64,000 nt of DNA, from the NCBI RefSeq assembly GCF_036346615.1, contig NZ_CP107836.1:6138001-6202000 (forward strand), in the 5' to 3' direction. The position numbers were made by a program, and so were the translations under genes. Source of the stretch: Streptomyces sp. NBC_00523 (GTDB lineage: Bacteria; Actinomycetota; Actinomycetes; Streptomycetales; Streptomycetaceae). The notes under the pieces are model-generated. The model saw nothing but the letters and a program-made list of their open reading frames with translations, was not told the origin of the DNA and made no database searches. Shown piece by piece: positions 7,877-64,000 of the stretch. Each line of letters starts with the position of its first letter. Position 1 is the stretch's first letter.

Positions 7877-7889
7877 GGGCCCCACACCC

Positions 7890-10034: not shown

Positions 10035-10099
10035 GGCTCCGACCGTAGGCCCGGAACACTTCGGACCCCGCCGAACCGTCCCTGCGCCACCATGGAGGC

Positions 10100-10774: not shown

Positions 10775-10781
10775 GCCGCGC

Positions 10782-12344: not shown

Positions 12345-12488
12345 CTCCCTGAGGCGTACGCGGTGGGGGCCGGAGCGGCGGCGTCAGGTTCCGGCGGGTC
12401 CGGCCCCCAGGGCATTCGGCGCGGGCCCCGGGGTGAGACCGAACCGGCCGCCTCTTCTCCCGTACCGCTGCCACCTGTACGCTAACAC

Positions 12489-12514
12489 GAAAACCGATCA
12501 ATGAACGCTTTTTG
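12489..12514. promoter_or_regulatory. operator copy A of the glycosidase regulon
   Basis: An imperfect inverted repeat of the form GAAAACCG-N9-CGcTTTTtG, with ATCA just after the left arm. It matches two further sites at 18072-18096 (inverted) and 18178-18201. It lies 43 bases before the GH1 start and includes an upstream in-frame ATG (12501), which argues against translation starting there. The likely binder is the TetR regulator encoded after GH1 (inference). Confidence 0.8.
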
Positions 12515-12557
12515 CGGAGGGGGCGAACGGCCCGCCTCCGGGCGAAAGGAGAACCCG

Positions 12558-34880: not shown

Positions 34881-35285
34881 TCAGCGGTGCGTGACGCGGA
34901 CGTCGACGCCGGTGTCGTCGCCGCGCAGCGTCGCCGCGACGGCCAGCGCGGCGGCCCGGCCCGCGGCGCGCCGCAGGGCCCGTCGGTCGCGGCCGGCACG
35001 GGTGCGCCCGGGGGTGCGGAGTTCCAGGCGGCCGCCGAGATAGCCCCGGCCCGCCTCGGCCAGGGCGCGCTGGGCGGCGAGCCGGGCCGCGTCAGCCACG
35101 GGGTCCCGGCCGTCCTCGCCGCGTACACCGTGACCGACGGCCCCGACCGTGACGCCGGGGGCCTCCCGCAGCACGAACCGGGCCCGTACGGTGCGATGGC
35201 GGCCGGTGACGCGGTGCGGCTGCCGTGACGGGGCGGGCCGGTCGCCGGGGGCCCGCCGCGCCCCGGACGCCGCGCGCCCGGTCAC
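34881..35285 (-). CDS. small protein of unknown function, last gene of the glutamate mutase operon
   Basis: A 134-residue protein that I do not recognise. It is rich in Arg and Ala. A recognisable core is RFVLREAPGVTVGAVGHGV followed by a likely helix with DPVADAARLAAQRALAEAG and a Gly/Arg-rich stretch, ending GDDTGVDVRVTHR. The GTG start overlaps the stop of the FMN enzyme gene (GTGA), as every junction in this operon does, which is the best evidence that it is real. Arg-rich sequence can arise from chance in GC-rich DNA, so caution is needed. It might be a small partner of the FMN enzyme. Confidence 0.55.
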   Translation of the reverse strand: MTGRAASGARRAPGDRPAPSRQPHRVTGRHRTVRARFVLREAPGVTVGAVGHGVRGEDGRDPVADAARLAAQRALAEAGRGYLGGRLELRTPGRTRAGRDRRALRRAAGRAAALAVAATLRGDDTGVDVRVTHR

Positions 35286-36577
35286 GGCGTCGCTCCGGCG
35301 GACGCGGGGTCGGCGGGCAGCGGTGCTCCGGCGCCGAAGGGGGCGCCGTCCGGCCACCAGAGGTCCTCGGGGCTCAGCGCGCCGACCTCGTACTTGCCCA
35401 ACGCGCTCACGAGCAGGCGCAGTTCGAGTGCGATGCTCTCGACGAGGCGTACCAGGCCGTGGTCCGGGTCCTCGTCCACGGCGACCAGCGCGGCGCGGCC
35501 GAGCCCGACGGCCGTGGCGCCCAGGGCGAGGGCGCGCAGGGCACGTCCGCCCTCCCACATCCCGCCGCTCGCGAGCAGGCAGCCCCCGGGCGGCCCGATC
35601 CGGCGCAGGCACTCCGCGAGCGGGAGGCCGACCTGGTCCAGGAAGACACGGGGCGCCCAGCCGGTGCCGCCCTCCGCGCCGTCCACGGTGACGGCGTCCG
35701 CCCCGGCCGCCCAGGCGGTGCGGGCGGCGTGCGCGATGTCGCGGCCCGGGTGGAACTTCACCCACGTACGGGCCTTGGGGAAGTTGTTCCGCATGAAGCG
35801 CAGCTGCTGGCGCAGGATCTCGTCGGTGAAGGTGCCCGGCGTGGCGCAGCGCAGCCGGCGTCCGTCGTCCGCGCCGAACGGGTCGGTGACCGTGAAGCGG
35901 TCCGCCAGCGCCTCCGCCTCCGCGCCCCCGACGACGGTCATGCCGCCGAGGCCCGGTTTGGCGCCCTGGCCGGTCTTCAACTCGAAGGCCAGGCGCCCCG
36001 ATGCGAGCAGCGGCCGGGTGGCGGGGTCGCTGTAGAGGAGGTTCCAGACCTCCGAGTCGGCGTCCTCGGTGGACTGCTGGACGACGATCCCGCCGACCCC
36101 CTCGGGCGCCGCGTCGAGATACGCCTCGATGCGCGCGAGGAGCGCGGAGCGGGCGGCGTCCCCGCCGCGCCGGTAGCCGTGCACGGGGACCATGTTCTCG
36201 CCGATGACCATGGGGATGCCGAGGCGGCCGGCCTGCCGGGACGCCTGCACGGCCAGGTCGCCGCTGCCCGCCCGGGTCGATCCGAAGGCGGACAGGTAGA
36301 GCGGCAGCGCGGCGGTGAACCCGCCAGTGCGTGCGCCCAGTTCGACGTCCCCGAACTCCGGCTCGCGGGCGAGGTCGATCAGCTTCTCCAGCCGCTCCGG
36401 CATGAAGACGGGCGGCACGATCCTGGCCCGGTCGAGCGCGTCCGTACCGGCCTCGCTTGCGGGGCCGAAGAGCTCTCCACCGTACGAGCCGGGGTCGGGG
36501 AACACCTCGGCGGTGCCGCGCCGGGCGCGGGCGCGGATCGCGCGCTCGGGGAGGCCGGGGGCGGCGAGGGCGCTCAC
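35282..36577 (-). CDS. FMN-dependent glutamate-synthase-domain protein
   Basis: A 431-residue FMN barrel of the glutamate synthase central-domain family (GltB domain 2, also seen in GlxD-type N-methylglutamate synthases). Motifs: LKTGQGAKPGLGG (about 218), VKFHPGRDI, ADAVTVDGAEGGTG (FMN and substrate loop), LASGGMWEG and GATAVGLGRAALVAV (phosphate binding). There is no amidotransferase domain and no obvious FeS cysteine cluster. In the family, this part turns 2-oxoglutarate and ammonia into glutamate or a related amino acid. Within this operon it could supply glutamate to the mutase or nitrogen to the synthetase (inference). Its GTG start overlaps the previous stop (GTGA). Confidence 0.88.
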   Translation of the reverse strand: MSALAAPGLPERAIRARARRGTAEVFPDPGSYGGELFGPASEAGTDALDRARIVPPVFMPERLEKLIDLAREPEFGDVELGARTGGFTAALPLYLSAFGSTRAGSGDLAVQASRQAGRLGIPMVIGENMVPVHGYRRGGDAARSALLARIEAYLDAAPEGVGGIVVQQSTEDADSEVWNLLYSDPATRPLLASGRLAFELKTGQGAKPGLGGMTVVGGAEAEALADRFTVTDPFGADDGRRLRCATPGTFTDEILRQQLRFMRNNFPKARTWVKFHPGRDIAHAARTAWAAGADAVTVDGAEGGTGWAPRVFLDQVGLPLAECLRRIGPPGGCLLASGGMWEGGRALRALALGATAVGLGRAALVAVDEDPDHGLVRLVESIALELRLLVSALGKYEVGALSPEDLWWPDGAPFGAGAPLPADPASAGATP

Positions 36578-38901
36578 GGGGCCACCACCCCGGGGAGCTT
36601 CGGGTAGGCGCTGACCTGCCACAGCGCGTCGAGGCCGGTGAGGAAGCGGACGAGGCGCTGAAGGCCCATCCCGAAGCCCGCGCTGCCCGGGATGCCCTCC
36701 CGGGCCTCCTTGAGGTACCAGGCGTACTTGGCGGGGTTCTCGCCGCTCTCCCGCATCCGGGTGACGATGGTGGCGTAGTCCGACTCGCGCTCGCTGCCCG
36801 AGACCAGCTCGCCGTAGCCGTGCGGCGCGATCAGGTCGAAGTTCCGCAGCACCCCCGGGCGTTCCGGGTCCTCCCGGTCGTAGAAGCCGCGCGAGCCCTT
36901 CGGATAGTCGTTGATGAAGAACGGCCGGTCGCTCTCCAGGGAGAGGAGCCGTTCGCCGGTCCAGTCGATCTCGCTGTCCGGGCTCTGCGGGTGACCAGTC
37001 GTCAGGAGCCGTGCCACGGCCTCCTGATGGGTGCACACGTCGTACTTGCCGCTGCGGACGTCCGCGAAGTCGGCCTCCTGGCGGCCCAGTTCGGCGAGCA
37101 CATCCGGCACGGCGGTCCATACGTGCTCGGCGACGTGGGTGAGGAGCCCGGCGGCGACCTCCTGCGCGTCCTCGCGGCTCGCCCCGGCGATCTCCACGTC
37201 GATCTGGTGGAACTCGACCAGATGGCGGCCCGTGGTGGCGGTCTCCTCCGGCTCCACGCGGACGTTGGGCGCGATGTAGAACAGCTTCGGGAAGCCGTGC
37301 AGCGACGCCTGCTTGTACAGGATCGCGCTGGTCATCAGCTTGTACGGGCGCCCGTAGTAGTCGACGTCCAGTGCCTTGGCCCCGCGCCCGCCCGGGTCGG
37401 TGACGGGTCCCACGAGCGGGGGCAGCAGCTCCGTGAAGCCCGACCCCCGCAGGAAGTCGCGGGCCGCCCACAGCGCTTCCTGCTGGACGAGCATGGCGGC
37501 GCGCAGCTGCGGGGAGCGCAGGTGCTCACCGAGCGGGGGCGGCAGGGCGGGTCCTGCGGCCTGCGGGGCGTGGTCCATGACGGGCTCCTCTTCGTGGCGG
37601 TGGTGAGGGGTGTCGGTGCGGGGTCGGTACGAGGGCACGGGGTCGGCCGGCGGCCGGTCGTAGCGGTCGGCCATGTGGTTCAGGGCGGTGAGCAGGCCGT
37701 TGGAGGTCAGCGGCGCCAGGTCGGCCGGGGCGTCGGGGCGGATCGGCATCGCGCCGGTGTCCGACCAGCGCAGCCTCCCGTCCGCGCCGATCACGCTGCG
37801 GGAGCGGCCCGCGTTGTCGGGGTGGAGGCAGAACGGCACGTCGAGCAGGCCGCGTTCGAAGGCGGCGGGCAGCGCGCGGGCCAGGTCGGGGTGCAGACCG
37901 AGCACGGCCTCCACCAGGGCCCGGGCCTCCGTGTAGACCTCGGAGTCGTCCCGGCCCACGGGCAGCGGGGGACCGGCGAGTGCGGCGGCCGCGGCGGCGG
38001 TCTCCAGGGCGCGGACGTTCTCCGCGACGGTCGGGATACGCCGGGACTCGGCGGTCGTCTTCACGAGGATCCGGTCCGCCCCGGCCCGCACCGCGAGCCG
38101 CGCCGACGCCTCCAGCAGCCTGGTCGCCCCGCGCTCGGTGCGCGGGTAGACGCCCATGTAGGTGTAGAGGACGACGTGGTGGTCGACGCCCGCCGGCAGC
38201 AGCTCGCCGGCCAGGCGGCGCAGGGCCCGTATCGCCTCCTCGTCCTGGCCCGGGTCCGTCTGCTGCGCGTAGCTCAAGGAGACGCTGCGCACCCCGTGCT
38301 GGGCGAAGAACAGGCATTCCAGCACGCTCATCGCGACCAGCAGCCCGGGCGGGCAGAGCTGGCCGAGCAGGCAGCCGCCGAAGCTTTCGAGGTGCGGCAC
38401 GGAACCGGGGCGGGCGTGCCCCGCGAGGAGTTCGCACCCCTCGGCCCAGGCGGCGACGGACTCGCGCAGCGGGGTGCGGCCGTACGGCAGGCAGTAGGAG
38501 ACGGGCCCGCCCTCGGTCGCGTCGAGCCCCGCGGCGAGCAGGGCCCGGACGATGGCCTGCGGGCGGGCGGAGCCGTGGCGGACCTGGACCGGGAACCCGT
38601 CGTCGTGCACCCCGTCGAGCAGGGCCCGGGTGACGGCGAGCGGGTGCGTGGCGATCGGGTAGCCGTTGAGCCCGGCCCCCTCGGCGAGCGCGGCACCGGC
38701 GCCCGCGAGGTCGCCGACGCGGGTGTAGCTGTCGATGGTGAGCGTCCCGACGGTCGTGGCCGTGGCGGCCCGGGTCCGCTCCAGCCCCGTACGCATGGCG
38801 GCCGGGTCGCCGAACCCCATGCGGGGCTGGACCACCAGCCGTCCGGCGGACGCGGAGGCCGCGACGAACGCGCCGAACGGGCGCGGCGCGGTGGCGGTCA
38901 T
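36574..38901 (-). CDS. fused glutamate mutase large subunit and asparagine-synthetase-like class II synthetase core
   Basis: One open frame of 775 residues with two unlike halves. Residues 1 to about 425 are the glutamate mutase E subunit (methylaspartate mutase barrel): FPVQVRHGSARP (substrate Arg), EGGPVSYCLPYGR and GVYPRTERGATRL. A Pro/His-rich linker (about 425-441) has no stop codon. Residues 442-775 are a class II aminoacyl-tRNA-synthetase core like archaeal AS-AR asparagine synthetase: YKLMTSAILYKQ, VEFHQIDVEIA (motif 2 region) and FGMGLQRLVRFL (motif 3), with no anticodon-binding domain. A good ribosome binding site (GAGGAG) precedes the internal ATG at 37578, so a separate second protein may also be made. 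The start overlaps the small-subunit gene (ATGA). Confidence 0.88.
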   Translation of the reverse strand: MTATAPRPFGAFVAASASAGRLVVQPRMGFGDPAAMRTGLERTRAATATTVGTLTIDSYTRVGDLAGAGAALAEGAGLNGYPIATHPLAVTRALLDGVHDDGFPVQVRHGSARPQAIVRALLAAGLDATEGGPVSYCLPYGRTPLRESVAAWAEGCELLAGHARPGSVPHLESFGGCLLGQLCPPGLLVAMSVLECLFFAQHGVRSVSLSYAQQTDPGQDEEAIRALRRLAGELLPAGVDHHVVLYTYMGVYPRTERGATRLLEASARLAVRAGADRILVKTTAESRRIPTVAENVRALETAAAAAALAGPPLPVGRDDSEVYTEARALVEAVLGLHPDLARALPAAFERGLLDVPFCLHPDNAGRSRSVIGADGRLRWSDTGAMPIRPDAPADLAPLTSNGLLTALNHMADRYDRPPADPVPSYRPRTDTPHHRHEEEPVMDHAPQAAGPALPPPLGEHLRSPQLRAAMLVQQEALWAARDFLRGSGFTELLPPLVGPVTDPGGRGAKALDVDYYGRPYKLMTSAILYKQASLHGFPKLFYIAPNVRVEPEETATTGRHLVEFHQIDVEIAGASREDAQEVAAGLLTHVAEHVWTAVPDVLAELGRQEADFADVRSGKYDVCTHQEAVARLLTTGHPQSPDSEIDWTGERLLSLESDRPFFINDYPKGSRGFYDREDPERPGVLRNFDLIAPHGYGELVSGSERESDYATIVTRMRESGENPAKYAWYLKEAREGIPGSAGFGMGLQRLVRFLTGLDALWQVSAYPKLPGVVAP

Positions 38902-39311
38902 GCCCCCACCCGCGCGGGCGCCGCGAGGAACGCGCACAGGGCGTCCAGGTCGGCGGCCCCGTCCCCGAGGACGGCGTCGCAGCCCGCCGCGCGCAGCCGG
39001 GCCGCCTCGTCCTCCCGGGAGTGGCCGGCCGTGCCCAGCTTGCCGCCGACGGCCACCGGCAGGGCGCCGAGCCCCGGTTCGGCCCGCAGCGCGCGCACGG
39101 CGGCGAGCGCGTCCCGGTAGCCGTGGCCGTTGACGCTGCTGAGCACGACCGCGTCGGGGGCATGCCGGCGACAGGCGGCCGTGAGCAGACGGGGACTCAC
39201 GCAGGGGCCCAGCGCGACGACGGCGTGCCCCCGCTCCTCCAGGAACAGCCCGAGATACACGAGGTTCCAGGTATGGGAGTCCGAAGCGGTTCCGCTCAGG
39301 AGTATCTTCAT
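38898..39311 (-). CDS. cobalamin-binding small subunit of glutamate mutase
   Basis: A 137-residue B12-binding protein, usual length for the S subunit. The His that binds cobalt is in SDSHTWN (about 10-15), which reads DxHxxN where the classical motif is DxHxxG; SSVNGHGY (about 65) and VGGKLG (about 90) match the other two B12-contact loops. With the E subunit it rearranges L-glutamate to threo-3-methylaspartate by a radical from adenosylcobalamin. It is the first gene of the precursor operon. The ATG at 39311 is 176 bases from the MbtH gene, and a terminator lies between, so this operon has its own promoter. The leader contains repeated GCGGAAGT and GCGGCAGT elements. Confidence 0.9.
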   Translation of the reverse strand: MKILLSGTASDSHTWNLVYLGLFLEERGHAVVALGPCVSPRLLTAACRRHAPDAVVLSSVNGHGYRDALAAVRALRAEPGLGALPVAVGGKLGTAGHSREDEAARLRAAGCDAVLGDGAADLDALCAFLAAPARVGA

Positions 39312-39487: not shown

Positions 39488-39703
39488 TCAGGCGTACTGG
39501 GCGACCAGGCTGCGGGGGCGGATGTCGGTCCAGTGCGCGGTGATGTACTCCAGGGCCTCGGAGCGGTTACCGGGCCCCCAGACACCTTCCCAGCCTGCCG
39601 GGATGTCGGCGAAGGCCGGCCACAGGGAGTGCTGTCCCTCGTCGTTCACCACGACGTGGAAGGAGCCCTCGGCGTCGTCGAAGGGGTTCGCGATGTCGCT
39701 CAT
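39488..39703 (-). CDS. MbtH-like protein
   Basis: A 71-residue MbtH protein, typical length. The signature is intact: [40 protein letters not shown], with the three conserved Trp residues. MbtH proteins bind A domains and are needed for their folding or activity. Its ATG overlaps the stop of the last NRPS gene (ATGA), so it is made with it. The free-standing and trans-acting A domains in this cluster are likely clients. Confidence 0.95.
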
Positions 39704-42700
39704 GAATAACTCCTCGTTTCGTTTTCCCGCAGGCTGTTTTCCTGCAGTGCAGAGATTTTCTCCGCGATGACTTTTCCGATGTGTGCGAGCGGTTCTTCCT
39801 CGGCCATCCGGAGATGCGTGGAATTCACGGTGTGGTTCTCGACCCGGCCCGTCAGATAAGCATTCCAGGTGGCGGCCAGTGCGCCTTCCGGTTCGCCGGG
39901 CCTGCGGGCGGTGAAGAACACCGCGCCGGTGTCCGCGACCTCGGGCACGTGCCGCGCCATGAGGGCCGCATGGGTCTCGGAGGCCCGCTGCACCGCCCGG
40001 ATCTCCTCGGCGCTGAAGCCTTCGAGCACCGGGTCCGCCGCCTCCGGCAGCGCGTCCTCGTCGGGCGCCGCATCCGGCTCCCGCGCCGGCAGCACGGACA
40101 CGCTGCCCGGCCCGGTCTGGTGGACATCCATCAGCGCGAGCAGTTCGACGCGCTGACCGGCCGCGCGGAGCCGGACGGCCATGGTGTGGGCGACGATCCC
40201 GCCGAAGGACCAGCCGAGCAGCCGGTACGGGCCCCAGGGCTGGACCTGCCGGACGCGTTCCAGGTAGTCGTCGGCCATCTCCTCGACGGAGCGCGGGAGA
40301 TGGCCCGGCTCGCTCAGCGCGCGGGCCTGGAGGGCGTACAGCGGCTGGTCCTCCCCGAGGTGCCGGGCCAGGCCCGCGTACGACCAGCCGACCCCGGTCC
40401 CCGGGTGTACGCAGAACAGCGGGCGCCGGGTGCCCCGGGTGTTCAGCGGCAGCAGGACGCCCATCGCACCGGCCGTGCCGTCCGGGTCCTGCGCACCGAG
40501 CAGCCCGGCCGGGGTCGGGGCGCGGAACAGATCGCGGACCGTCCGGTCGATGCCGAGGACCGAGCGCACCCGGCTCACCAGGCGCACACCGAGCAGCGAA
40601 TGCCCGCCCAGCGTGAAGAAGTTGTCGTCCAGACCGACCCGGGGCGCGCCCAGGATCTCGGCGAACAGCCCGCACAGCACCTCCTCCCTGGCGTTGCGCG
40701 GCGCCCGGTACCCGACGGCGGTCCGGTCCGGCGCGGGCAGCGCCCGGCGGTCCGGCTTCCCGTTCACGGTCAGCGGCACGGCGTCCAGGACGACGACCGC
40801 CGACGGCACCAGATGGGCGGGCAGCGCGGTACGGGCCAGGGCGAGGACGTCCGCCCCGGCGACCTCGGACCCGGCGCGCGGCACCACGTACCCGACGAGG
40901 GTCCGCTCGCCCGGCCGGTCCTCGCGCACGACGGCGAGGGCCTGGCCGACCGAGGGGTGCGCGGCGAGCGCGTGCTCCACCTCGCCCGGCTCGATCCGCA
41001 CCCCGCGCAGCTTGACCTGGCCGTCCGCCCGCCCCAGGAACCGCAGTTCGCCCTCCGGCGTCCAGACGACCCGGTCACCGGTGCGGTACATCCGGCTGCC
41101 GTCCGCCTCGAACGGGTCGGGGACGAACCGCTCGGCGGTCAGGTCCGGGCGGCCGGTGTACCCGCGCGCCACATGCGTACCGGCGATGTACAGCTCACCG
41201 GGCACCCCCGGCGGCACCGGCCGCAGCGCCGCGTCCAGAACGTGGCTGCGGGTGTTGTCCATGGGCCGGCCCAGATGCAGCCCGGCCGCGCCGAGCGAGC
41301 CCCGGCCGCCGGTGAGCCACTGGTTGTGCGAGGCGAACGTCGTCTCGGTGGGGCCGTAGGAGTGGACGAGGGCGGTGTCCGGGCAGTGCGTCAGGACCCG
41401 TTGCACGGCGGTGGGCGAGGCGACGTCGCCGCCCGTCCACACCTCGCGCAGCAGCCGCAGCGTGTCCAGCGCCTCATCGGCCATCACATGGAACAGGCCG
41501 ACGGTGAAGTAGGCGACGGTGACGCCGTGTTCGCGGACGGCGCGGGCGGTCTCCGCGAGGTCGGTGCCGTCGCCGCGCATGACGACCAGGCTGCCGCCGT
41601 TGAGGAGCGGCACCCACATCTCGAACACCGAGGCGTCGAAACCGGTCGCGGAGTGGACCAGCATCCGGTGGGGACCGCCGGCGGTGGTGTCGCGGTCCGC
41701 GGCCAGCTCCGTCACATTGCGGTGGGTGACGCCGACGCCCTTCGGGCGGCCGGTGGACCCGGACGTGAACATCACGTACATCAGGTCGTCCCCGTCGACC
41801 GCCACGGCCTCGCGGTCCGCAGGCGGGGTGCCCTCGGCGGGCGCGTCGGTCAGGAGGACCGGTACGGAGACCTCCTCCGGCACCACGGCCGCCTGCCCGG
41901 TGTCCGTCGCGATCAGGCGCACATCCGCGTCCTGGACCATCAGCGCGATCCGCGCCCCGGGCAGGGCCGGGTCCAACGGTACGTACGCGGCACCGCACTT
42001 GAGGGCGGCGAGCGCGGTCACCACCAGCGGGACACCGCGTTCCAGCAGGACCCCGACGGTGTCGCCCCTGCGCACCCCGGCCGCGAACAGCCGGGCGGCC
42101 AGCGCGTCGGCCCGGGCGTCGAGCTCGGCGTAACCGACGGTCTCCGCGTCGGTGATCAGCGCGGGCGCCTCCGGCGTGAGCGAGGCCCGGCGGGCGATGA
42201 CCTCGTGGACGGGGGCCCGGTCGCGGGTCGCGGTGGCCGTGTCGTTGTACTCCGCGACCAGCCGGAACCGCTCGGCCTCGGTGAGCAGGCCCACCGCCCC
42301 GATCCGTACCCCCGGATCGGCGGCGACGGTGCGCAGCAGACGCCCGATGTGGGCGGCGATCAGGTCGGCGGTGGCGGCGTCGAACAGGTCGGTGGCGTAT
42401 TCGAGCCCACCCGCCAGACCGGCCGGCCGCCCCGCCTCGTCCTTCCGCTCCCACAGGGCGAGGGTGAGGTCGAACTTGGTGGACAGCGTTTCCAGCGGCG
42501 CCGGTTCGGCCCGGAGCAGCGGCCCCTCGGAGCGGTCGGCCGTGTAGTCGTGGTGCAGCTGGACGACGAACTGGGCCAGCGGGTGGTGGGCGGTGGAGCG
42601 GGCCGGGTTGAGGTGTTCCACGATCCGGTCGAAGGGAAGCCGCTGATGTGCGTAGGCCGCGAGATCCGTGTCGCGCACCCGCCCCAGCAGCTCGCCGAAC

Positions 42701-45700
42701 TCCGGGTCACCCGACGTGTCGGTGCGCAGGACCAGCGTGTTGACGAAGAAGCCGACCAGATCGCTCAGCGCCTCGTCGTCGCGCCCGGCCGTCATGGTGG
42801 CCAGCGGCAGATCGGTGCCTGCCCCGTGCCGGGTGAGGACGGCGGCGAGCGCGGCCTGCAGCACCATGAAGAGCGTCGCGCCGTGGCGCCGGGCCAGCTC
42901 CTCCAGGGCCTCGTGCGTGGCCGCGTCGACGGCGAGCGGCGCGTGGCCGCCCCGGTGGGTGGCCTCGGCGGGGCGGGGCTTGGCGGCGGGCAGTTCGAGG
43001 ACGGGCGGCGCCCCGGCGAGGGCGCGTTCCCAGAAGGCGAGATGGTCATGCGCCGCCGGTCCGTCGAGAAGTTCCTGCTGCCAGAGCGTGTAGTCGGCGT
43101 ACTGGACGGGAAGCGGCGCCCAGTCCGGTGCGTGGCCCTCGGCGCGGGCGGCGTAGGCGGCGCCCAGGTCCGCGAGCAGCGGCCCCGTCGACCAGCCGTC
43201 GGCCGCGATGTGGTGGACGAGCACGACGAGCACCTGACCGCCGCCGTCGTCCGGGGTGAGCAGGGCGGCCCGCAGCGGGAGTTCCCCGGCGAGGTCGAAG
43301 ACATGCCCGGCCGCCGAGGCGACCGCCGCCCGGAACCGCCCGGCCGGCACCGTCCGTACGTCGAGCACGGGCCGGGCGTCCGCCACGATCGCCTGGTACG
43401 GCTCCCCGTCCACCGACGGATAGCGGGTCCGCAGCACCTCGTGGCGCTCCACCAGATCGGCCAGGGCACGGCCGAGGACCTCGGCGTCCAGCGGCTCCGC
43501 CGGACGCAGCACCAGCGGGATGTTGTACGAGGCGCTGGGACCTTCCAGCGCGTCGATGAACCAGAGCCGGTGCTGCGCCCGGGACAGCGGCAGGCGCTCC
43601 GGCCGCTCCGTGCGGCGGACCAGCGCGGGCCCCTCGTCGCCGGTGGCCCGGTGTTCCGCGATGCGGCGGGCCAGGGCGGCCGGGGTCGGGGCGAGCAGCA
43701 GGTCCCGGACGTGGACGTCGACGCCCAGGCGGGCCCTGATCCGGTTGGCGAGCCGCACCCCGCTCATCGAGTGGCCGCCGATGGTGAAGAACCCCTCGTC
43801 CGGGCCGACCTCGTCCAGCCCCAGGATCTCCGCGAACATCTCCCGCAGGGTGTCCAGGTGTTCCGCGTCCGGTGCGCCGCCCGCCCGGGCCGCCTCGGCG
43901 TCGGCGGCCTGCCGGGCGGCGAGGGCCGCGACGCGCTCACGGCGGCCGGCGAGGGCCAGGCGCTCCTCGTCGCCCAGCAGCCCGGAGTCGGCGACGGGCG
44001 CCCCGGGCCGCTCGGCAGCCGTACGCAGGGCGCGTTCCAGGGCGCCCAGGAGGAGGCGGGCGGTGTCCTCGTCGAGGACGTCACGCGCGTACTCCAGGCC
44101 GAGTTCGAGCCCGGCGGGGGAGCCGTCGGAGGTGCGGTGCTCCACGCAGGCGGCGGTCAGGTCGAACTTGGTGGTCGCGGGGCCCTCCGCCCGGAAGCGG
44201 CCGGTGAGCGCGCCGAACGCGAAGGGGGCGTCGTCCGGGGCGGCCGTGCGCAGGGTGAGCATCGTCTGGAAGAGCGGGTGCACCCCGGGCGTGCGCGGCG
44301 GGTTCAGATGCTCCACCAGCAGGTCGAAGGGGAGGCCCTGGTGCTCGTAGGCGGCGAGGTCCGTGTCGCGTACCCGCTCCAGCAACTCGGCGAACGCCGG
44401 GTCACCCGAGGTGTCGGTCGGCAGGACCAGCGTGTTGACGAAGAAGCCGACGAGCGCGCCCAGCGCCTCGTCGTCCCGCCCCGCCACCGGCGTCCCCACG
44501 GCCACCCGCTCCCCGCAGCCCGCCGCCCGCAGCGCGAGGGCCAGCGCGGCCTGGATCACCATCAGCATGCTCGCGCCGTGCGCGTCGGCCAGCCCGGCGA
44601 GCCGGGCGTGCGCGGCCGGATCGAGGCGCGTGGCGACCACGCCGCCCCGGTGGTCCGGCACCGCCGGGCGCGGCCGGTCCAGCGGCAGATCGGTCACGGC
44701 CGGCAGCCCGTCCAGCGCGGCGCGCCAGTGGGCGAGCCCGCGCGCGACGGCGGAGTCCGGGTCGTCAGCCGTACCGAGGACGTCGTGCTGCCACAGGGTG
44801 TAGTCGGCGTACTGGACGGGAAGGGGCTCCTGCTCCGGCGCCCGCCCCTGTGCACGGGCGGTGTACGCGGCGGCCAGGTCGTTCATCAGCGGCGCCAGCG
44901 ACCAGCCGTCGCCCGCCACATGGTGCAGCAGCACCGCCAGCACCGCCTCCGGACCCTCGTCCCCCTCGGGCACGAACAGCGCCACCCGCAGCGGCAGTTC
45001 CCGCGCCAGGTCGAACGTCTCGGACACGAAGTCCTGGACCCGATCCCGCAGTTCACCGGCCGGGCACTCGACCGTACGCGCCCGCACCGCCGACGCGGCC
45101 AGCACATGCTGGTACGGCTCGTCCTCCGGGGCCAGGAACACGGTCCGCAGCACCTCGTGCCGCTCGGCGAGATCCGCGACGGCGGCGGCCAGCGCCGCCC
45201 GGTCGGGCACCCCGTCCAGCTCCAGCACGATCGGCATGTTGTACGCGCAGGACGGCCCGTCCAGCTGATCCAGCAGCCACAGCCGGCGCTGCGCGTGCGA
45301 CAGCGGCACCCGGTCCTCGGCGGGCAACGGCTCCTCGTGGACGACCGAAAGACGGGGGTCCGTGGTCCGCAGCACCTTGCGGTTGATCTTCCCCGAGCTG
45401 GTACGGGGCAGCGCGGCGACGATACCGACGGCGGCGGGCACGGCGGCGGCGGGCATCCGCTCGCGCACCAGGCCGCGCAGTTCCTCGGCCCCCACCCCGC
45501 CCTCGGTGACGACGAACGCGACGAGCCGCTTGACCCCGTCCGCGTCCTGCTGGGCGACGACGGCGGCCTCCCGGACCTTCGGGTGCGAGGACAGGACCGA
45601 GTCGACGGCGGCGGGGTCGATGCGCTGCCCGCCGATCTTCACCTCGTCGTCCAGCCGCCCGTGGTACAGGATCTGCCGGTCCTCGCCGATCGTGACGAGG

Positions 45701-46803
45701 TCCCCGGTGCGGTAGGCGCGCTCCCCGTCCAGCTCGGTGAACCGGCGGGCGTTCAGCTCCGGGTTGCTCAGATAGCCGTACGACAAGCCACCGCCGAGCA
45801 GCCACAGTTCACCGCCGACGACGGCCGCCCGGACCCCAGGCAGCGGCCGGCCGATCGGCACCGGACCGTCCCCGTGGCGGGTCAGGTCGGCGACCGTCGC
45901 GACCACCGTGGTCTCCGTGGGGCCGTACGCGTTCAGCAGCCGCGTCCGCTCTCCGGTCAGCTCCCGCCACTGGGCGACCCGCTCCGGAAGCGCCGCCTCC
46001 CCATAGATGATGACCGTGTCCAGGCAGCCGGGCAGGCCCACCGCACCGGTGCTGAGGACATGGACCAGCTCGTGCCAGTACGCGGCCGGCAGGTCGAGCA
46101 CCGTGATCCCGTGCCGCGCGCAGCCGGCGAGCAGGTCGCGTACGTCCAGCATGTCGTCCGTCCGCAGCACCAGCGTCCCGCCGGCCCCGAGGGTCGCGAA
46201 CACCTCCTGCACGCTGGCGTCGAAGTGCAGCGGCGAGAACTGAAGGACCCGCGAGTCGGGCCCGATGCCGTACGCGGGGACGGCGCCCGCGATGAAGTGC
46301 GCGAGCGAATCGTGGGCGACGACCACGCCGTTGGGGGTGCCCGTGGAGCCGGAGGTGTAGATCACGTACGCGGCACCGGCCGGTGCGCCCGGGCCGGGCA
46401 GGACCAGTTCACCGGCGACGGCCACCTCGGCGGGCGTCGGCGCCAGGTCGCCGCAGCTGTCCTGGAGGATGGCCGCGTTCCGCGCGTCGGGGGCATGGAT
46501 GTCGAGGGGCAGGTAGGCGGCGCCGGTGGTGAGCACGGCGAGGAGGCCGACGATCGCGTCGATCCCGCGCGGGCGGTGGAGGGCGACGAGGCGGCCGGGG
46601 GCGGCGCCCTCGGCGGAGAGGGTCAGGGCCCGTTCCCGTACGGCGTCCGCGAGTTCCGCGTACGTCAGCCGGGCGGTGTCGTGGACCAGGGCGACCGCAT
46701 CGGGGCGGGTCTGCGCCTGGTGGGCGATGAGGTCGAGCACCGGCGGGGCGGGCGAGGGAGAGGGGCCGCCGTCGAGCAGGTCGTCCGTTCTGATGGGGGG
46801 CAT
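39700..46803 (-). CDS. terminal NRPS, A-C-T-C-A-T-TE
   Basis: A 2,367-residue NRPS. Domains: A (about 1-490), C (498-930, HHVAGDG), T (980-1055, FTIGGHSM), C (1070-1500, HHIAADG), A (1533-2020), T (2032-2105, FTLGGHSL) and TE (2128-2355, GWSFGG). The first A domain has no carrier after it, only about 20 residues before the C domain, and its A3 motif is [10 protein letters not shown], with Asn for the usual Lys; by alignment with GrsA its pocket is close to D-A-Q-D-I-Y-A-V-V-K. The last A domain reads close to D-A-F-Y-W-G-S-F-A-K. Neither matches a code I know. The middle module (C-T) lacks its own A domain. The TE releases or cyclises the peptide. GGAGGAAA precedes the ATG. Confidence 0.94.
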
Positions 46804-50794: not shown

Positions 50795-50856
50795 GGTTGC
50801 TGCTCCTCGGGAACGACGGGGGAGGGCGGGAGAACGGGACGGGGCACTGACGGCGG

Positions 50857-52698
50857 TCAGCCATCCTTGGCGGCCGTCAACTCCTCGATGTGGGCGGCGA
50901 GATCACGCAGCCTCGGGTGGGCGTAGACCGCCTTCACCGGAAGCGCGACGGCGAGTTCGGCACGTACGCGCGACACCAGCTTGATGGCGAGCAGCGAGTG
51001 GCCGCCGAGCTTGAAGAAGTTGTCGTCCGGGCCGATCGACGCGGCGCCCAGCACCTGCGCCCACACCCGGCCGATCAGCTCCTCCGCCCGCCCGTTCAGC
51101 CCGGCGCCCCGCTCCGGCGCCTCGACCGGCGAGGCCGCCTCGATCCGGGCCGGCAGCGCGGACCGGTCCAGCTTGCCGCTGGGTGTCGTCGCGAACCGGT
51201 CGACCGCGACGAACGCGGACGGCGTCATGTACGAGGGCAGCGCCCCCGCCACGGCGCTGCGCAGCGCGCTGGCGTCCCCGCCCCGGTGGTAGGCGATCAG
51301 GCACGGCGTGCCCCCGGCGTCCTCGCCCAGGACCACCGCCGCCTCCGTGGCGCCCGCCCGGCTCAGGGTCGCCTCGATCTCCTGCACCTCGATGCGGTGG
51401 CCGCGCAGCTTCACCTGCCCGTCGAGCCGTCCGAGGTGCACGAGGCGCCCGTCCGGCAGCAGCCGGCAGCGGTCCCCGGTGCGGTACATGCGGTCCCCCG
51501 GCGCGCCGAACGGGTCGGCGACGAACCGCTGGGCGGTCAGGTGGGGGCTGCGCCGGTAGCCGCGCGCGATCCGGGGCCCGGCGAGATACAGCTCCCCGGC
51601 CTCACCCGGACCGACCGGCGCCATGCGGGCATCCAGCAGCCGCATCCGCAGCCCCGGGAGGACGGCACCGATGTGCGGCTCGCCCGGCTCCTCGATCCAG
51701 CCGGCCGTGGCGTCGACCGTGCACTCGGTGGGCCCGTACACGTTCACCGCGCGCAGCACACCCGCCCGGTGGGCGTCGGCCAGCCGGTCCCACAGGGCCG
51801 GGCCGATCGCCTCGCCGCCGACGAGCAGCGTCAGCGGGCGCGGGCCGCCGTCCGGGGTGAGCAGGTCCAGGAGCGGTTCGGCGTGCGACGGGGTGATGTC
51901 CAGATCGGTGAGCTTCTGCGCGTCGATGAAGGCGGCCAGCAGGGCCGGGTCGCGGCGGGTCTCCTCGTCCATCATCACCAGCGTGTCCCCGCGCGACAGC
52001 CGCACCCACTGCTGCACCGACGCGTCGAACGACGGCGACGCGTTCCACCCGACCCGCCGCCCCTCACCGCGCGCCGCACCCTCGTCCTCCAGCTCCCGCA
52101 GCAGCAGCGAGGCCGAACCGCGCGCGATCTCCACACCCTTGGGCCGGCCCGTGGAGCCGGAGGTGTAGATGACGTACGCGAGTGCGTCCGGCCCCACCGG
52201 CACCGGCGCGAACGCCCCGCCGGGGAGCGCGGTCAGCTCGCCGACCGTGACCGCCCGGGGGCCGGGAAGCGCCGGACCGGTGCCGTCCGTGACCACCAGG
52301 TCGGCGCCGGAGTCCTCGAGGAGCAGCCGCCGCCGCTCCTCGGGGAGAGCCGGGTCCACGGGCAGGTAGGCGGCGCCCGCCGTGAGGGTGCCGACGATCG
52401 CGGTGACCAGGTCGGCCCCGCGCGGCAGGCAGAGCGCCACGACGCTCTCCGGCCCGGCACCCCGCCGGGTGATCCCGGCCGCGAACGAGGCGGCGTGCTG
52501 TCGGAACTGGTTGAACGTCAGCTCTCGGTCCCCGGCGACGACGGCGGTGCGGTCACCGGGCACGGCCGCGAGCCGGGCCATCAGGTCGGCGGCGCCGGTC
52601 CCGGCGGCGGTGCACGTCTCGCAGGGGCAGCCGGCCGGGTGGGCGAGGGCGGAGGCGGTCGCGCGCTCGGGGAGTACGGCGGTCATGGCGGGGCTCAC
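50857..52698 (-). CDS. free-standing A-T didomain, glutamine-type
   Basis: A 613-residue protein with an A domain (about 45-530) and a carrier (about 545-605, FKLGGHSL). A3 is [12 protein letters not shown]5 VYGPTECT and the final Lys is in PSGKLDR. The GrsA-aligned pocket reads D-A-Q-D-L-G-V-V-D-K, the known glutamine code of lichenysin synthetase (glutamate differs at the third place). A short Cys-rich N-terminus (CPCETC, about 24-29) comes before the A domain. With no C domain it must pass its amino acid on in trans, probably to an A-less module of the next protein, perhaps after hydroxylation by the dioxygenase encoded just upstream. The GTG start overlaps that gene (GTGA). Confidence 0.92.
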   Translation of the reverse strand: MSPAMTAVLPERATASALAHPAGCPCETCTAAGTGAADLMARLAAVPGDRTAVVAGDRELTFNQFRQHAASFAAGITRRGAGPESVVALCLPRGADLVTAIVGTLTAGAAYLPVDPALPEERRRLLLEDSGADLVVTDGTGPALPGPRAVTVGELTALPGGAFAPVPVGPDALAYVIYTSGSTGRPKGVEIARGSASLLLRELEDEGAARGEGRRVGWNASPSFDASVQQWVRLSRGDTLVMMDEETRRDPALLAAFIDAQKLTDLDITPSHAEPLLDLLTPDGGPRPLTLLVGGEAIGPALWDRLADAHRAGVLRAVNVYGPTECTVDATAGWIEEPGEPHIGAVLPGLRMRLLDARMAPVGPGEAGELYLAGPRIARGYRRSPHLTAQRFVADPFGAPGDRMYRTGDRCRLLPDGRLVHLGRLDGQVKLRGHRIEVQEIEATLSRAGATEAAVVLGEDAGGTPCLIAYHRGGDASALRSAVAGALPSYMTPSAFVAVDRFATTPSGKLDRSALPARIEAASPVEAPERGAGLNGRAEELIGRVWAQVLGAASIGPDDNFFKLGGHSLLAIKLVSRVRAELAVALPVKAVYAHPRLRDLAAHIEELTAAKDG

Positions 52699-53732: not shown

Positions 53733-53778
53733 GATGGGTTCCTCTTTCTCGGCTTGGTTCGAACGAAGTGGGGTGGGG

Positions 53779-54561
53779 TTACGCGGACGCGGCGGCGGAG
53801 TCGCGCAGGGCGTCGAGGACCGGGTTGAGACGGGCGAAGAAGCCCGCCAGGTCCTGCTGGAAGTAGAAGTGGTCACCGGGCAGCACCTGCGGCTCGACCT
53901 CGTGCCCGGTCACCAGCGACCAGCCCGCCAGCATCTCCGCCGGGACGATCGGGTCGGCGTCCCCGCCGAACACCGCCACGGGGCAGTCCAGTTGGGCGTT
54001 CGGGGCGGTGCACCGGTAGGCATCGTCGATCGCGAAGTCGGCGCGGATGGACGGCAGGACGATCTCGCGCAGCTCGGGGTCGTCGAGGATGCCGTCGTCG
54101 GTGCCGCCGCGCTCCTTGATGGCCGCGACCAGCTGGTCGTCGTCCAGCAGTTCCGGATGCACGGGGCACTGGTTCGGCAGCACCGGCGCCCGGCACGCGG
54201 AGGCGATCAGCAGGCGCGGAGTGCGGCCGGCGGCCCGCAGGGCGCGTACCACCTCGAAGGCCACCAGCGACCCCATGCTGTGCCCCAGCACCACCAGCTC
54301 ACCGGTGTCGGCGGGCAGCGAGTCCACCACGGGCTGCGCCAGGTCGTCCACGGACAGCGGCAGGTCCTCGCAGTAGCGGGCGCCGCGGCCCGGGTACTGG
54401 CCGATCAGCAGCCGCACATCGGCCGGCAGGTGCTCGCGCCAGCCGCCGTAGGCGTGGGCGTTGCCCCCGGCGTGCGGCAGCACCAGCAGCGAGAGGCGGT
54501 GCGGGCCGTCACCGGGAAGGTCCCAGACGACGTCTTCGGGGGCGGGGGACACGGAGGTCAT
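53779..54561 (-). CDS. type II thioesterase
   Basis: A 260-residue alpha/beta hydrolase of the type II thioesterase family. Nucleophile Ser in GHSMGS (about 94), Asp in GGDADPIV (about 203) and His in PGDHFYF (about 232) form the triad; the family opening LLVLPHAGGNAHAY is present. It clears wrong or stalled acyl groups from the carriers of the assembly line. Its ATG overlaps the stop of the large NRPS (ATGA). Confidence 0.95.
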   Translation of the reverse strand: MTSVSPAPEDVVWDLPGDGPHRLSLLVLPHAGGNAHAYGGWREHLPADVRLLIGQYPGRGARYCEDLPLSVDDLAQPVVDSLPADTGELVVLGHSMGSLVAFEVVRALRAAGRTPRLLIASACRAPVLPNQCPVHPELLDDDQLVAAIKERGGTDDGILDDPELREIVLPSIRADFAIDDAYRCTAPNAQLDCPVAVFGGDADPIVPAEMLAGWSLVTGHEVEPQVLPGDHFYFQQDLAGFFARLNPVLDALRDSAAASA

Positions 54562-57500
54562 GAGCTGATCCGTTCTGTCTCGGTACGACGGCGGAGGGTG
54601 GGCCGGGCCTTCTTGGCGGCCGGTGCGGACTTCAGCGCGGTGATGTGCTCGGCGAGCCGGGCCGGTGTCGGGTGCTCGAAGACGTCGCGGACGGTGAGCC
54701 GGACGTCCAGGGAGACCGCGATGTGGTTGGTGAGGCGGGCGCCCAGGAGGGAGTGGCCGCCGTGGTGGAAGAAGTCGTCATCGATGGTCAGTGCTTCCTC
54801 GGCCCCCAGCGTGCGGGCGAAGAGGCCGGTCAGGGTCTCTTCCAGCGGGTTGCGCGGGGCGCGGCCCCGGGAGGCGACAGCGGCAGGCTCCGGGAGGGCG
54901 CGCCGGTCGATCTTGCCGTTGGGGGTGAGGGGGAGCCGGTCGAGGACGGTGAGGTAGGTGGGCACCATGTGCTCGGGCAGCCGCTCGGTGAGATGCCTGC
55001 GGATGTCCTCGGTCGTCGTGCCGGTGTCGGTGACGACGTAGGCGGCGAGCTGGCGGCGGTGGGTGGTGACGGTGGCCTGGGTCAGGTGGGGGTGGCTGAG
55101 CAGCGCGGTCTCCACCTCGGCGGGTTCGACGCGGAAGCCCCGGATCTTCACCTGGCTGTCCGCCCGGCCTTCGTAGTGCAGGCGGCCTTCGCGGTCGAAC
55201 CGGGCGAGGTCTCCGGTGCGGTAGAGCCGGGTGCCGGGTTCGCCGTACGGGTTCGGTACGAAGGTGGTGGCGGTGAGGTCGGGGCGGTTGAGGTAGCCGT
55301 GGGCGAGGCCGTGTCCGGTGAGGTAGAGGTGGCCGGTGACACCGGGCGGGACGGGTTGGAGGGTGGCGTCGAGGATGTAGGCGGCCTTGTTGGTGAGGGG
55401 TGAGCCGATGGGGATGGTGGGGTGGGGCTCGTCGGTGGGGGCGACGGTGTGGGTGGTGGTGAAGCCCATGGACTCGGCGGGGCCGTATCCGTTGACCACG
55501 GTGGTGTGGGGCGAGAGCTGTTGGAGTTTGTGCACGTGGGCGGGGGAGGCCGCCTCGCCACCGGTGTAGGCGATGGTGACGGTGGTGAATGCCTCGGGGT
55601 GTTCGTCGGTGAGGTAGTTGAAGAGGCTGGCGGAGAGTTGGAGCATCGTGACGCCGTGGCGGTGGGACAGCTCGGCGATGAGGGCGGGTTCGGGCTTCTG
55701 TCCGGGTTGGAGGACGGTGGTGCCGCCGTGGAGGAGTGCGCCCCAGAATTCGAGGCTGAAGGCGTCCCAGGAGACGGGTGAGCACTGGAGGAACACCTCG
55801 TCCGGGCCGAAGTTCCCGTATGTCTGCGCGGTGACCGTGGAGACCAGGTTGCGGTGCGAGGACAGGATGCCCTTGGGCCGTCCGGTGGAGCCGGAGGTGA
55901 ACATCACGCAGGCGAGGTCGTCGCCCTGGATCGGCAGACCGAGGTTGCCGGCGTCGTGGTGGGTCAGCTCGTCCGGGCCTTCGGGGCAGGTGGTCCAGGT
56001 TCCGGGGAGGCGGTCGGCGAGTGCGGTGTGGGTGACGAGGTGGCTGATGGCGGCCTCGGTCGCTGCGGAACGCAGGCGCTCGTCGGGGAAGTCCGGGTCG
56101 AGCAGCACGTGCCCGGCGCCGGTTTTGAGTACGGCGATGAGGGCGGCGGCGAAGGTGGCGTTGCGTTCCAGGAGGATGCCGGCGAGGTCGCCCCGGCCGA
56201 GGCCGCGTGCGCGCAGGTGGTGGGCCCAGCGGTTGGCGGTGGCGTTGAGCTCCGCGTACGTGTAGCTGTTCTCGCCGTCGATGAGCGCGACGGCCTCCGG
56301 GGTTCGGGCGGCCTGGTCCTCGAAGCGTGCGACCAGCGAGGTGGCGCCGATGTCGGCGGTGGTCCCCGCCCACGGCCCGAGGATGAGTTGCCGTTCGGCG
56401 GCCGACACCACGTCCAGCTCACCGACGCGCAGCTCGGGATCGGCCAGCGCCTGGCGCAGCACCTCGCCGAGCACGGTCACCATGCGTTCGACGGTGGACC
56501 GGTCGAACAGGTCCTCCGCGTAGAGCACCGTGCCCCGCAGCCCCTGGCCGTCGTCCGTGCGGAGCAGGAACTCCACGTCGAACTTGGCCGCGCCGCTCGT
56601 GACGTCCGGCATCGCGGTGACCGTCGCGTCCCCGAGCCGCAGCTCCGGAACGCCTCCGGATTCCAGGGTGAGGCAGATCTGGAAGAGGGGGTGGCGGGCG
56701 AGTGTGCGGGTGGGGTTGAGGGCGTCGAGGACGAGGTCGAAGGGTGCGTCCTGGTGGGCGAAGGCGTCCAAGTCCGTGGCACGGACGCGTTCCAGCAGCT
56801 CCCGGAAGGTGGGGTTGCCGTCGGTGTGGGTGCGCAGGACGAGGGTGTTGACGAAGAACCCGACCAGATCGCGGAGTGCTTCGTCGGTGCGTCCGGCGAC
56901 GGGTGAGCCGATGGCCAGGTCGGTGCCGGCGCCCAGTCGGGTGAGCGCTGCGGCCAGGGCCGCGTGCACCACCATGAACGGGGTGCACCCCTCGGCGCGG
57001 GCCAGCGCGCCGATGCGCTCGAACAGGTCGTCTCCCAGGGCGACTTCGAACTGACCGCCCCGGTGCGAGGCGCGTGCGGGGCGCGGGCGGTCCAGGTTCA
57101 GGGCGTGCTCCTCGGGGAGCCCTTCCAGCGTCTTGTGCCAGAACGCCAACTCCTGGGAGAGCACGCTGTCCGCGTCGTCGGCGGCCCCCAGCGCCCGCTG
57201 CTGCCAGACCGCGTAGTCCGCGTACCGCACCGGCAACGGTTCCAGGACACTCCCGGTCGCACCCGCGCTCCGCGCCTCGTAAGCCCGGGACAGGTCATCG
57301 AACAGCACTCCGGTGGACCGGCCGTCCGTCGCGATGTGGTGGAGCAGGAGCAGGAGCACCGAGGAGTCGTCATCGACCTCGAACAGGGTCGCCCGGACGG
57401 GGAGTTCGCTGCGGAGATCGAAGACGTGGCGCGCGGCCCCGGCCATGGCGCGGTCCAGCTCGCCGGAGGTCACCTCGCGGCGCTGGAAGGGCACCTGGGC

Positions 57501-60500
57501 CTCCGCGGCCGGTACGACGTGCTGGCGCGGTTCGCCGTCGACCGTCGCGAACACGGTCCGCAGCGGGGTGTGACGTACGACCACGTCGTGCAGCGCCGCG
57601 TCGAGCACCCCGGCGTCCAGCGGACCGGTCAGCCGTACCGCCATCGGTACGTTGTACGCGGCGCTGCCGCCGTCCAGCTCGGCCATCAGCCACAGGCGGC
57701 GCTGGGCGAAGGACACGGGCGCGTCGCCGTCACCGGACCAGGCCCCGGCGGTGAGCGGCGGGAGCGCGGGCCGGCCGTCGAGGGTGGCGATGTGCTGGGC
57801 GAGGCGTGCGGGCGTGGGGTGCTGGAACACGTCCCGCATGGTCAGCCGGATGCCCAGCACCTCGGCGAGGTGGTTGGTGAGGCGGGCCGCCAGCAGCGAG
57901 TGCCCGCCATGGGCGAAGAAGCTGTCCTCGACACCCACTGGCCCCGGAGTGCCCAGCACCTTGCTGAACAGGGCGACCGTGACCTCTTCGAGCTGGCTCC
58001 CCGGGGCGCGGCCCTGCGAGGCGACGGCGGCCGGTTCGGGCAGGGCGCGTCGGTCGATCTTGCCGTTGGGGGTGAGGGGGAGCCGGTCCAGGACGGTGAG
58101 GTAGGCGGGAACCATGTGCTCGGGGAGCCGGTCGATCAGGTGTCGGCGGATGTCTTCCGTGGCGGTCTCGGTGTCGGTGACGACGTAGGCGGCGAGCTGG
58201 TCGCGGTGGGTGGTGACGGTGGCCTGGGTGAGGTGGGGGTGGGTGAGGAGCGCGGCCTCGATCTCACCGGGTTCGATGCGGAAGCCGCGCACCTTGACCT
58301 GGCTGTCCGCCCGGCCTTCGTAGTGCAGGTGGCCGTCGTGGTCGAAGTGGGCGAGGTCTCCGGTGCGGTAGAGGCGGGTGCCGGGGTCGCCGTAGGGGTT
58401 GGGGATGAAGGTGGTGGCGGTGAGGTCGGGGCGGTTGAGGTAGCCGTGGGCGAGGCCGTGTCCGGTGAGGTAGAGGTGGCCGGTGACGCCGGGTGGGACG
58501 GGTTGGAGGGTGGCGTCGAGGACGTAGGCGGCCTTGTTGGTGAGGGGTGAGCCGATCGGGATGGTGGGGTGGGGTTCGGTGGTGGGGGCGATGGTGTGGG
58601 TGGTGGTGAAGCCCATGGATTCGGCGGGGCCGTATCCGTTGACCACGGTGGTGTGAGGTGAGAGGTGCTGAAGCTTGTGGACGTGGGCGGGCGAGGCGGC
58701 TTCCCCGCCGGTGTAGGCGACGGTGACCGACGCGAACGCTTCGGGGTGTTCGTCGGTGAGGTAGTTGAAGAGGCTGGCGGAGAGTTGGAGCATCGTGACG
58801 CCGTGGCGGTGGGACAGCTCGGCGATGAGGGCGGGTTCGGGCTTCTGTCCGGGTTGGAGGACGGTGGTGCCGCCGTGGAGGAGTGCGCCCCAGAATTCGA
58901 GGCTGAAGGCGTCCCAGGAGACGGGTGAGCACTGGAGGAACACCTCGTCCGGGCCGAAGTTCCCGTATGTCTGCGCGGTGACCGTGGAGACGAGGTTGCG
59001 GTGCGAGGACAGGATGCCCTTGGGCCGCCCGGTGGACCCCGACGTGAACATCAGGCATGCCACGTCGTTCCCCGTGACCGTCACACCCAGGTTGCGGTCC
59101 GGCGTCTCCACCGGCACTCCGCCGGAGCACGAGACCACACCCCAGGGGCCTGCCACACGCTGCCCGAGGACGTCGTCCGTTACGAGCAGGGCGATGCCCG
59201 CATCCTGTGCGGCCGAGCGAAGACGCTCGTCGGGGAAATCGGGGTCGAGCAGGGTGTAACCGGCGCCCGTCTTGAGTACGGCGATGAGGGCGGCGGCGAA
59301 GGTGGCGTTGCGTTCCAGGAGGATGCCGGCGAGGTCGCCCCGGCCGAGGCCGCGTGCGCGCAGGTGGTGGGCCCAGCGGTTGGCGGTGGCGTTGAGCTCC
59401 GCGTACGTGTAGCTGCTCTCGCCGTCGATGAGCGCGACGGCCTCCGGGGTTCGGGCGGCCTGGTCCTCGAAACGTGCGACCAGCGAGGTGGCGCCGATGT
59501 CGGCGGTGGTCCCGGCCCACGGCCCGAGGATCAGCCCCCGCTCGGCGGCCGACAGCACCTCCACGTCTCCGATGTGTGCTTCCGGGTCGTCCAGGGCCTG
59601 GCGCAGCACCCCGCCGAGCACGGTCACCATGCGCTCCACGGTGGCCCGGTCGAACACGTCCTCCGCGAAGACGACGACCCCGTGCAGGCCCCGGCTGTCG
59701 TCCGACCGGAGCAGGAACTCCAGGTCGAACTTGGCCGAACCGTTGGTCAGCCCCCGCACCTCGGCAGTCTGACCGCCCAGCCCCAGCGTCGGAGCCTCAC
59801 CGGCCTCCAGGGCGAGGCAGATTTGGAAGAGGGGGTGGCGGGCGAGTGTGCGGGTGGGGTTGAGGGTGTCGATGACGAGGTCGAAGGGTGCGTCTTGGTG
59901 GGCGAAGGCGTCGAGGTCGGTGGTGCGGACGCGTTCGAGCAGTTCGCGGAAGGTGGGGTTGCCGTCGGTGTGGGTGCGCAGGACGAGGGTGTTGACGAAG
60001 AACCCGACGAGTTCGTGCAGGGCTTCGTCGGTGCGTCCGGCGACGGGGGAGCCGATGGCCAGGTCGGTGCCGGCGCCGAGGCGGGTGAGGGCTGCGGCGA
60101 GCGCGGCGTGGACGACCATGAAGGGGGTGCAGCCCTCGGACCGGGCCAGCTCGCCGATGCGCTCGAACAGGTCCTCTCCCAGGGCCACTTCGACCTGACC
60201 GCCCCGGTGCGAGGCCACCGCCGGACGGGGTCGGTCGAGGCTCAGCCCGTGCTCCTCCGGCAGTGCGCCCAAGGTGTCCCGCCAGAAGGCGAGTTCGCGG
60301 GAGAGCACGCTGTCCGCGTCGTCGGCCGAGCCCAGCACCCGCTGCTGCCATACCGCGTAGTCCGCGTACTGCACCGGAAGCGGCTCAAGCACGCTCGCGG
60401 TCGCACCCGCGCTCCGCGCCTCGTAGGCCCGGGACAGGTCATCGAAGAAGACACCGGCCGAGCGGCCGTCCGTCGCGATGTGGTGGAAGAGCAGGAACAG

Positions 60501-63998: not shown

Positions 63999-64000
63999 GG

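Follow-up and report, generated by a model that had tools for sequence, protein, structure and literature searches.

Glutamate mutases form 3-methylaspartate, and those of friulimicin biosynthesis, vicenistatin biosynthesis and Clostridium cochlearium combine a GlmE barrel carrying substrate-binding motifs with a B12-binding GlmS subunit; we know of no fused or adjacent synthetase in any of these systems. Asparagine synthetases of the AS-A type are known to act on free aspartate, the β-carboxylate of which is adenylated before the amide is released with ammonia. The archaeal enzyme AS-AR of Pyrococcus abyssi (PDB 3p8t and 3reu) consists of a class II synthetase core without an anticodon domain. 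In the streptolydigin pathway, as cited in PMC5357945, slgE1, slgE2, slgZ and slgE3 are separate genes that are tied to one methylated residue. The literature assigns 3-methylaspartate, and not its amide, to the SlgN1 A domain.

The window analysed here, a stretch of 64,000 nucleotides from Streptomyces sp. NBC_00523, holds homologues of SlgE1, SlgE2, SlgZ and SlgE3 together, and its NRPS cluster includes a SlgN1-type A domain. We consider it likely that a cassette of the streptolydigin type, supplying 3-methylasparagine, lies here within an uncharacterised NRPS cluster, and that two of its cistrons happen to be joined.

Supply genes and their streptolydigin counterparts

The joined cistrons form an open reading frame of 775 amino acids (36574..38901, minus strand), in which no stop separates a glutamate mutase E part from an asparagine-synthetase-like core. 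The original prediction had described a single open frame without naming its strand; the frame is present, and it reads along the minus strand from 38901 to 36574, the plus-strand translation of the same interval being meaningless. The domain identities that had been proposed, a glutamate mutase E and a class II core lacking an anticodon domain, are borne out by Pfam and NCBIfam. Residues 1-416 (37654..38901, minus strand) make up the GlmE part, a SlgE2 homologue that matches Met_asp_mut_E (PF06368) at residues 9-390 of the frame with 279.2 bits against a cut-off of 26.6, and that falls under the stricter TIGR01503 cut-off (149.9 against 390.1). Its TIDSYTR, RHG, EGG and SY..PY motifs align with the solved glutamate mutase 6h9e, where we take these residues to be substrate-binding, and the motifs are kept in 77 relatives.

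Upstream of the fused frame, with its stop overlapping the start of that frame (ATGA), lies the gene for a GlmS-like B12-binding small subunit of 137 amino acids (38898..39311, minus strand; Pfam B12-binding, 45 bits), a homologue of SlgE1 that had no match in the PDB at E 0.001. In place of the usual cobalamin motif DxHxxG, the window's GlmS has DxHTWN, a difference from the friulimicin, vicenistatin and C. cochlearium systems, with the Asp and His kept and Asn replacing Gly. The same replacement is found in essentially all relatives, the S. lydicus homologue among those that show it.

The synthetase core, a SlgZ homologue of the AS-AR type, occupies residues 442-775 (36577..37578, minus strand). 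Pfam places tRNA-synt_2 at residues 460-768 of the fused frame with 162 bits and detects no anticodon-binding domain in that frame. The NCBIfam model NF005052, 'asparagine synthetase A' (cut-off 368), scores 408.7 bits with the whole frame and 412 bits with the synthetase half alone. The core thus resembles AS-AR in being a class II core without an anticodon domain, in sequence and in its predicted fold, which matches AsnRS, AspRS and archaeal AsnA; Foldseek ranks the catalytic domains of AsnRS and AspRS slightly above AS-AR. It differs from AS-AR in being joined to a glutamate mutase E within an NRPS cluster, and in its expected substrate, which would be 3-methylaspartate.

The fourth gene encodes a GltS-like FMN protein of 431 amino acids (35282..36577, minus strand), a SlgE3 homologue whose GTG start overlaps the TGA of the fused frame. 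Because its Glu_synthase match (59 bits) covers profile positions 138-311 of 369 only, with the end of the domain missing, and because no conserved cysteines were found in this protein among 79 relatives, its annotated role as a normal ferredoxin-dependent glutamate synthase that supplies glutamate appears doubtful. The gene stays beside that for AS where GlmE is absent, and it does so in S. lydicus as well.

The comparison with streptolydigin was made through its producer S. lydicus 103 (G160), in whose genome one encoded domain shares 98% identity with the crystallized SlgN1. Its GlmS, GlmE, AS and GltS homologues share 51, 61, 60 and 65% identity, respectively, with those of the window, and we assign these frames, by homology and position, as probable slgE1, slgE2, slgZ and slgE3. 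Since homologues of all four are present in the window, the fused gene there corresponds to slgE2 plus slgZ. The arrangement is different in the two organisms: S. lydicus has GlmS and GlmE on one strand and AS, GltS and SlgN1 on the other, with GlmE and AS separate, whereas in the window all of the supply genes follow one another in a single run, GlmE and AS sharing a frame. The assembly lines also differ: the window has a multi-module NRPS, whereas streptolydigin, a tetramic acid, is built by a PKS-NRPS hybrid. The pathway envisaged for the window is not new in itself, as streptolydigin biosynthesis already has counterparts of all four enzymes, encoded by separate genes. A described protein that fuses GlmE to a synthetase was not found in the literature searched, nor did searches for NRPS products containing 3-methylasparagine turn up anything informative.

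Joining of the mutase and synthetase frames

Relatives were collected by scanning one genome per species, which yielded 79 loci. The order GlmS-GlmE-AS-GltS is kept in nearly all of them, and most have NRPS genes of several kinds nearby. Among the 74 loci that could be judged, GlmE and AS are fused in 17 and split in 57. The fusion recurs in other loci, ruling out a fusion unique to the window's genome as well as homologues always encoded by two genes, but the split form is the commoner one, and the linker is free in length and sequence. In three close relatives of the window (L006, L008 and L010) one in-frame stop separates GlmE from AS, and in L028 the two lie in different frames. A tree of the joined proteins requires six state changes, five of which are forced by well-supported branches, with gain and loss indistinguishable. 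A sequencing error hiding a stop, raised earlier as a possible refutation, is unlikely, and such an error or a pseudogene was rejected, given that the frame is open in eight strains of one clade, the window included. One of these, L002, is 98% identical to the window and has the same open frame. Its host, Streptomyces sp. CB01249, has two different copies of the cassette (L002 and L070) at two genome sites, one of them of the window type. In another locus, L039, the MbtH, GlmS, GlmE, GltS, MFS and PPTase genes at 7500-13700 all appear frameshifted, probably because the assembly is a long-read draft with sequencing errors.

Across actinobacteria, the GlmE and AS genes are arranged head to tail, and in the window's clade the spacer, being in frame and without a stop, would make a 775-aa fusion possible. 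In GC-rich genomes, two-gene operons become single open frames by chance at a predictable rate, and an open frame is therefore weak evidence for a fusion enzyme. Shuffled spacers placed in a random frame give an expectation of 18.2 fused loci against the 17 observed, a comparison that is rough because the loci are related. The linker itself (residues 417-441; 37579..37653, minus strand) varies among relatives in both length and sequence, ranging from 10 to 88 codons across the fused loci, and it is modelled as disordered, with AlphaFold giving a pLDDT of about 30 for residues 419-458 of the fused protein. Within the fused clade, substitutions in the linker show no excess at third positions, falling at the three codon positions in the numbers 28/14/13, as against 27/11/65 and 13/15/70 in the two coding flanks; the Fisher p of ~1e-8 for linker versus flanks derives from overlapping, non-independent pairwise counts and overstates the certainty, although the pattern is clear.

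The original prediction had also pointed to an internal ribosome-binding site from which the synthetase half might be made alone, and this site is present, with GAGGAG at 37590-37585 and the ATG at 37578-37576 (37576..37590, minus strand). All 17 fused loci retain a GGAG-like site ahead of the start of the synthetase, as compared with 9.3% of random ATGs, and this site would also permit a separate synthetase.

These data bear on whether the fusion is a bifunctional enzyme, selected for the channelling of 3-methylaspartate out of its mutase barrel and into its synthetase core. Eight related strains share the open frame, and it also occurs in several independent lineages, which speaks for such an enzyme. 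So do the indels of the window's fused clade: all three events counted keep the frame, for which the probability is about 1 in 27, and this weakly hints that the fusion may be under maintenance in that clade. Against it stand the chance-level frequency of fusion, a linker without coding constraint, the internal start retained in every fused locus, and the predominance of the split form. Neither a conserved fusion nor a constrained linker, as a dedicated bifunctional protein would have, was found, and the special channelled enzyme that had been proposed is not upheld, the fusion being confined to a minority of relatives and having been gained or lost at least five to six times. On the grounds of chance frequency, codon-position pattern, linker length and disorder, and the kept synthetase start, the fusion was probably not selected, and channelling by a bifunctional enzyme seems distinctly unlikely. 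We attach the same low probability to the idea that the 775-aa protein is made in the window's clade and works as a bifunctional enzyme, linking the mutase reaction, whose equilibrium is unfavourable, with an amidation driven by ATP, while the internal start supplies a second pool of free synthetase. Most likely, the join of GlmE and AS reflects an incidental in-frame spacer and not a new kind of enzyme.

Consumer A domains and the timing of amidation

Beyond GlmS, the minus strand carries a gene for an MbtH-like protein (39488..39694; Pfam MbtH) and one for an NRPS subunit with the organization A-C-T-C-A-T-TE (39700..46803), whose A-domain codes are DAQDIYAVV and DAFYWGSFA. The next subunit (46979-50794) is apparently C-T-C-T, with only a C-terminal piece of an A domain, and is adjacent to a stand-alone A-T protein (50857..52698, minus strand) with the Gln-like code DAQDLGVVD. 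Across 46979-54561, the C-T-C-T subunit thus lies beside the stand-alone A-T protein, a TauD-type oxygenase and a type II thioesterase. The region resembles the legonmycin system, where transfer of a residue from one carrier protein to another is carried out by a type II thioesterase (PMC8748450). A β-hydroxyglutamine could possibly be loaded in trans.

The last subunit (54558..64000, minus strand) continues past the window edge in a frame that extends to about 67808 and has four A domains, all of one subfamily, with the codes DALLYVGIY twice and then DALQYGGGF twice. This pairing of identical codes in one subunit suggests recent duplication or gene conversion. The best single-domain PDB match of these A domains is SlgN1 (4gr5/4gr4, 510.7 bits), the next proteins scoring at most 415 bits except for two-domain LgrA chains, the summed score of which amounts to about 280 for each domain; for the A-domain core the values are 272 for SlgN1 against 173. 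The SlgN1 core is 60-61% identical to the window's A domains, and its code, DALQIGGGF, which was read from the alignment and confirmed in G160, differs from that of modules 3 and 4 only at position 299 (I to Y). Modules 3 and 4 are, by this sequence comparison, the probable 3-methylasparagine modules, of SlgN1 type. Two other candidate consumers were discarded: a DLTK-type Asp/Asn A domain does not occur in the window, which has the SlgN1-type code instead, and the code D[AS][FY]YWG, which many cassette clusters share, was set aside because comparison with SlgN1 singled out the DALQ domains instead.

The association extends to other genomes. In a set of 296 Streptomyces genomes, a GlmE/AS match was present in 38 of the 49 with a SlgN1-type A domain, as against 67 of the 247 without one, and where both occur on one contig they are mostly within about 25 kb of each other. 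Gln-278 was seen in about 14 of 20 cassette genomes, among the domains read, whereas those read from genomes with a SlgN1-type domain and no GlmE/AS match have Tyr or Asn at this position.

Computation shows what the genes are, that their order is conserved, that the four slg supply genes and SlgN1 have homologues here, and that the fusion is labile; the protein forms present in the cell, the chemistry of every step and the point at which amidation takes place are what we infer. GlmS and GlmE, as an adenosylcobalamin glutamate mutase, would convert L-glutamate to 3-methyl-L-aspartate. The AS-AR-like core would then use ATP to activate the β-carboxylate of 3-methylaspartate for amidation with ammonia, and the SlgN1-type A domains of NRPS modules 3 and 4, which have Gln-278, would load the amide. 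A route of this kind from glutamate through 3-methylaspartate to 3-methylasparagine, with use by an NRPS, had been predicted, and the slg homologues and SlgN1-type domains support it as likely.

Amidation before loading is favoured because Gln-278 suits the amide better than the acid. As the substrate of SlgN1 is given as 3-methylaspartate, amidation could instead follow loading, with the amide being formed while the acid is bound to the carrier protein or once the peptide is complete. Acidic Asp codes have Lys at 278, however, where these domains have Gln, and the known action of AS-A enzymes on free aspartate also tells against the later step, which we hold to be unlikely.

The substrate of the synthetase may also be questioned. 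Three loci (L058, L062 and L065; genomes G419, G416 and G417) have AS and GltS-like genes, with no GlmE found anywhere in the genome, and a methylated substrate may thus not be obligatory for AS. A gap of only about 300 bases separates the MbtH and AS genes of L062. In two of these genomes the A-domain code has Ala for Gly at 322, a change that, in these two cases, might fit a substrate without the methyl group. Such observations would fit an AS half that made asparagine, or the amide of another unmethylated substrate, while the mutase served a different residue; yet the vast majority of loci have the four genes in a single run, and in streptolydigin they are tied to one methylated residue, which makes this reading very improbable for the window.

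Implications for Streptomyces peptide clusters

A 3-methylasparagine supply cassette of the streptolydigin type would provide a genome signature for peptides containing this residue, namely a GlmS-GlmE-AS-GltS cassette together with SlgN1-type A domains bearing the DALQ code. A SlgN1-type domain and a GlmE/AS match occur together in roughly one in eight of the sampled Streptomyces genomes (38/296), and many uncharacterised clusters could gain a building-block assignment from the cassette signature.
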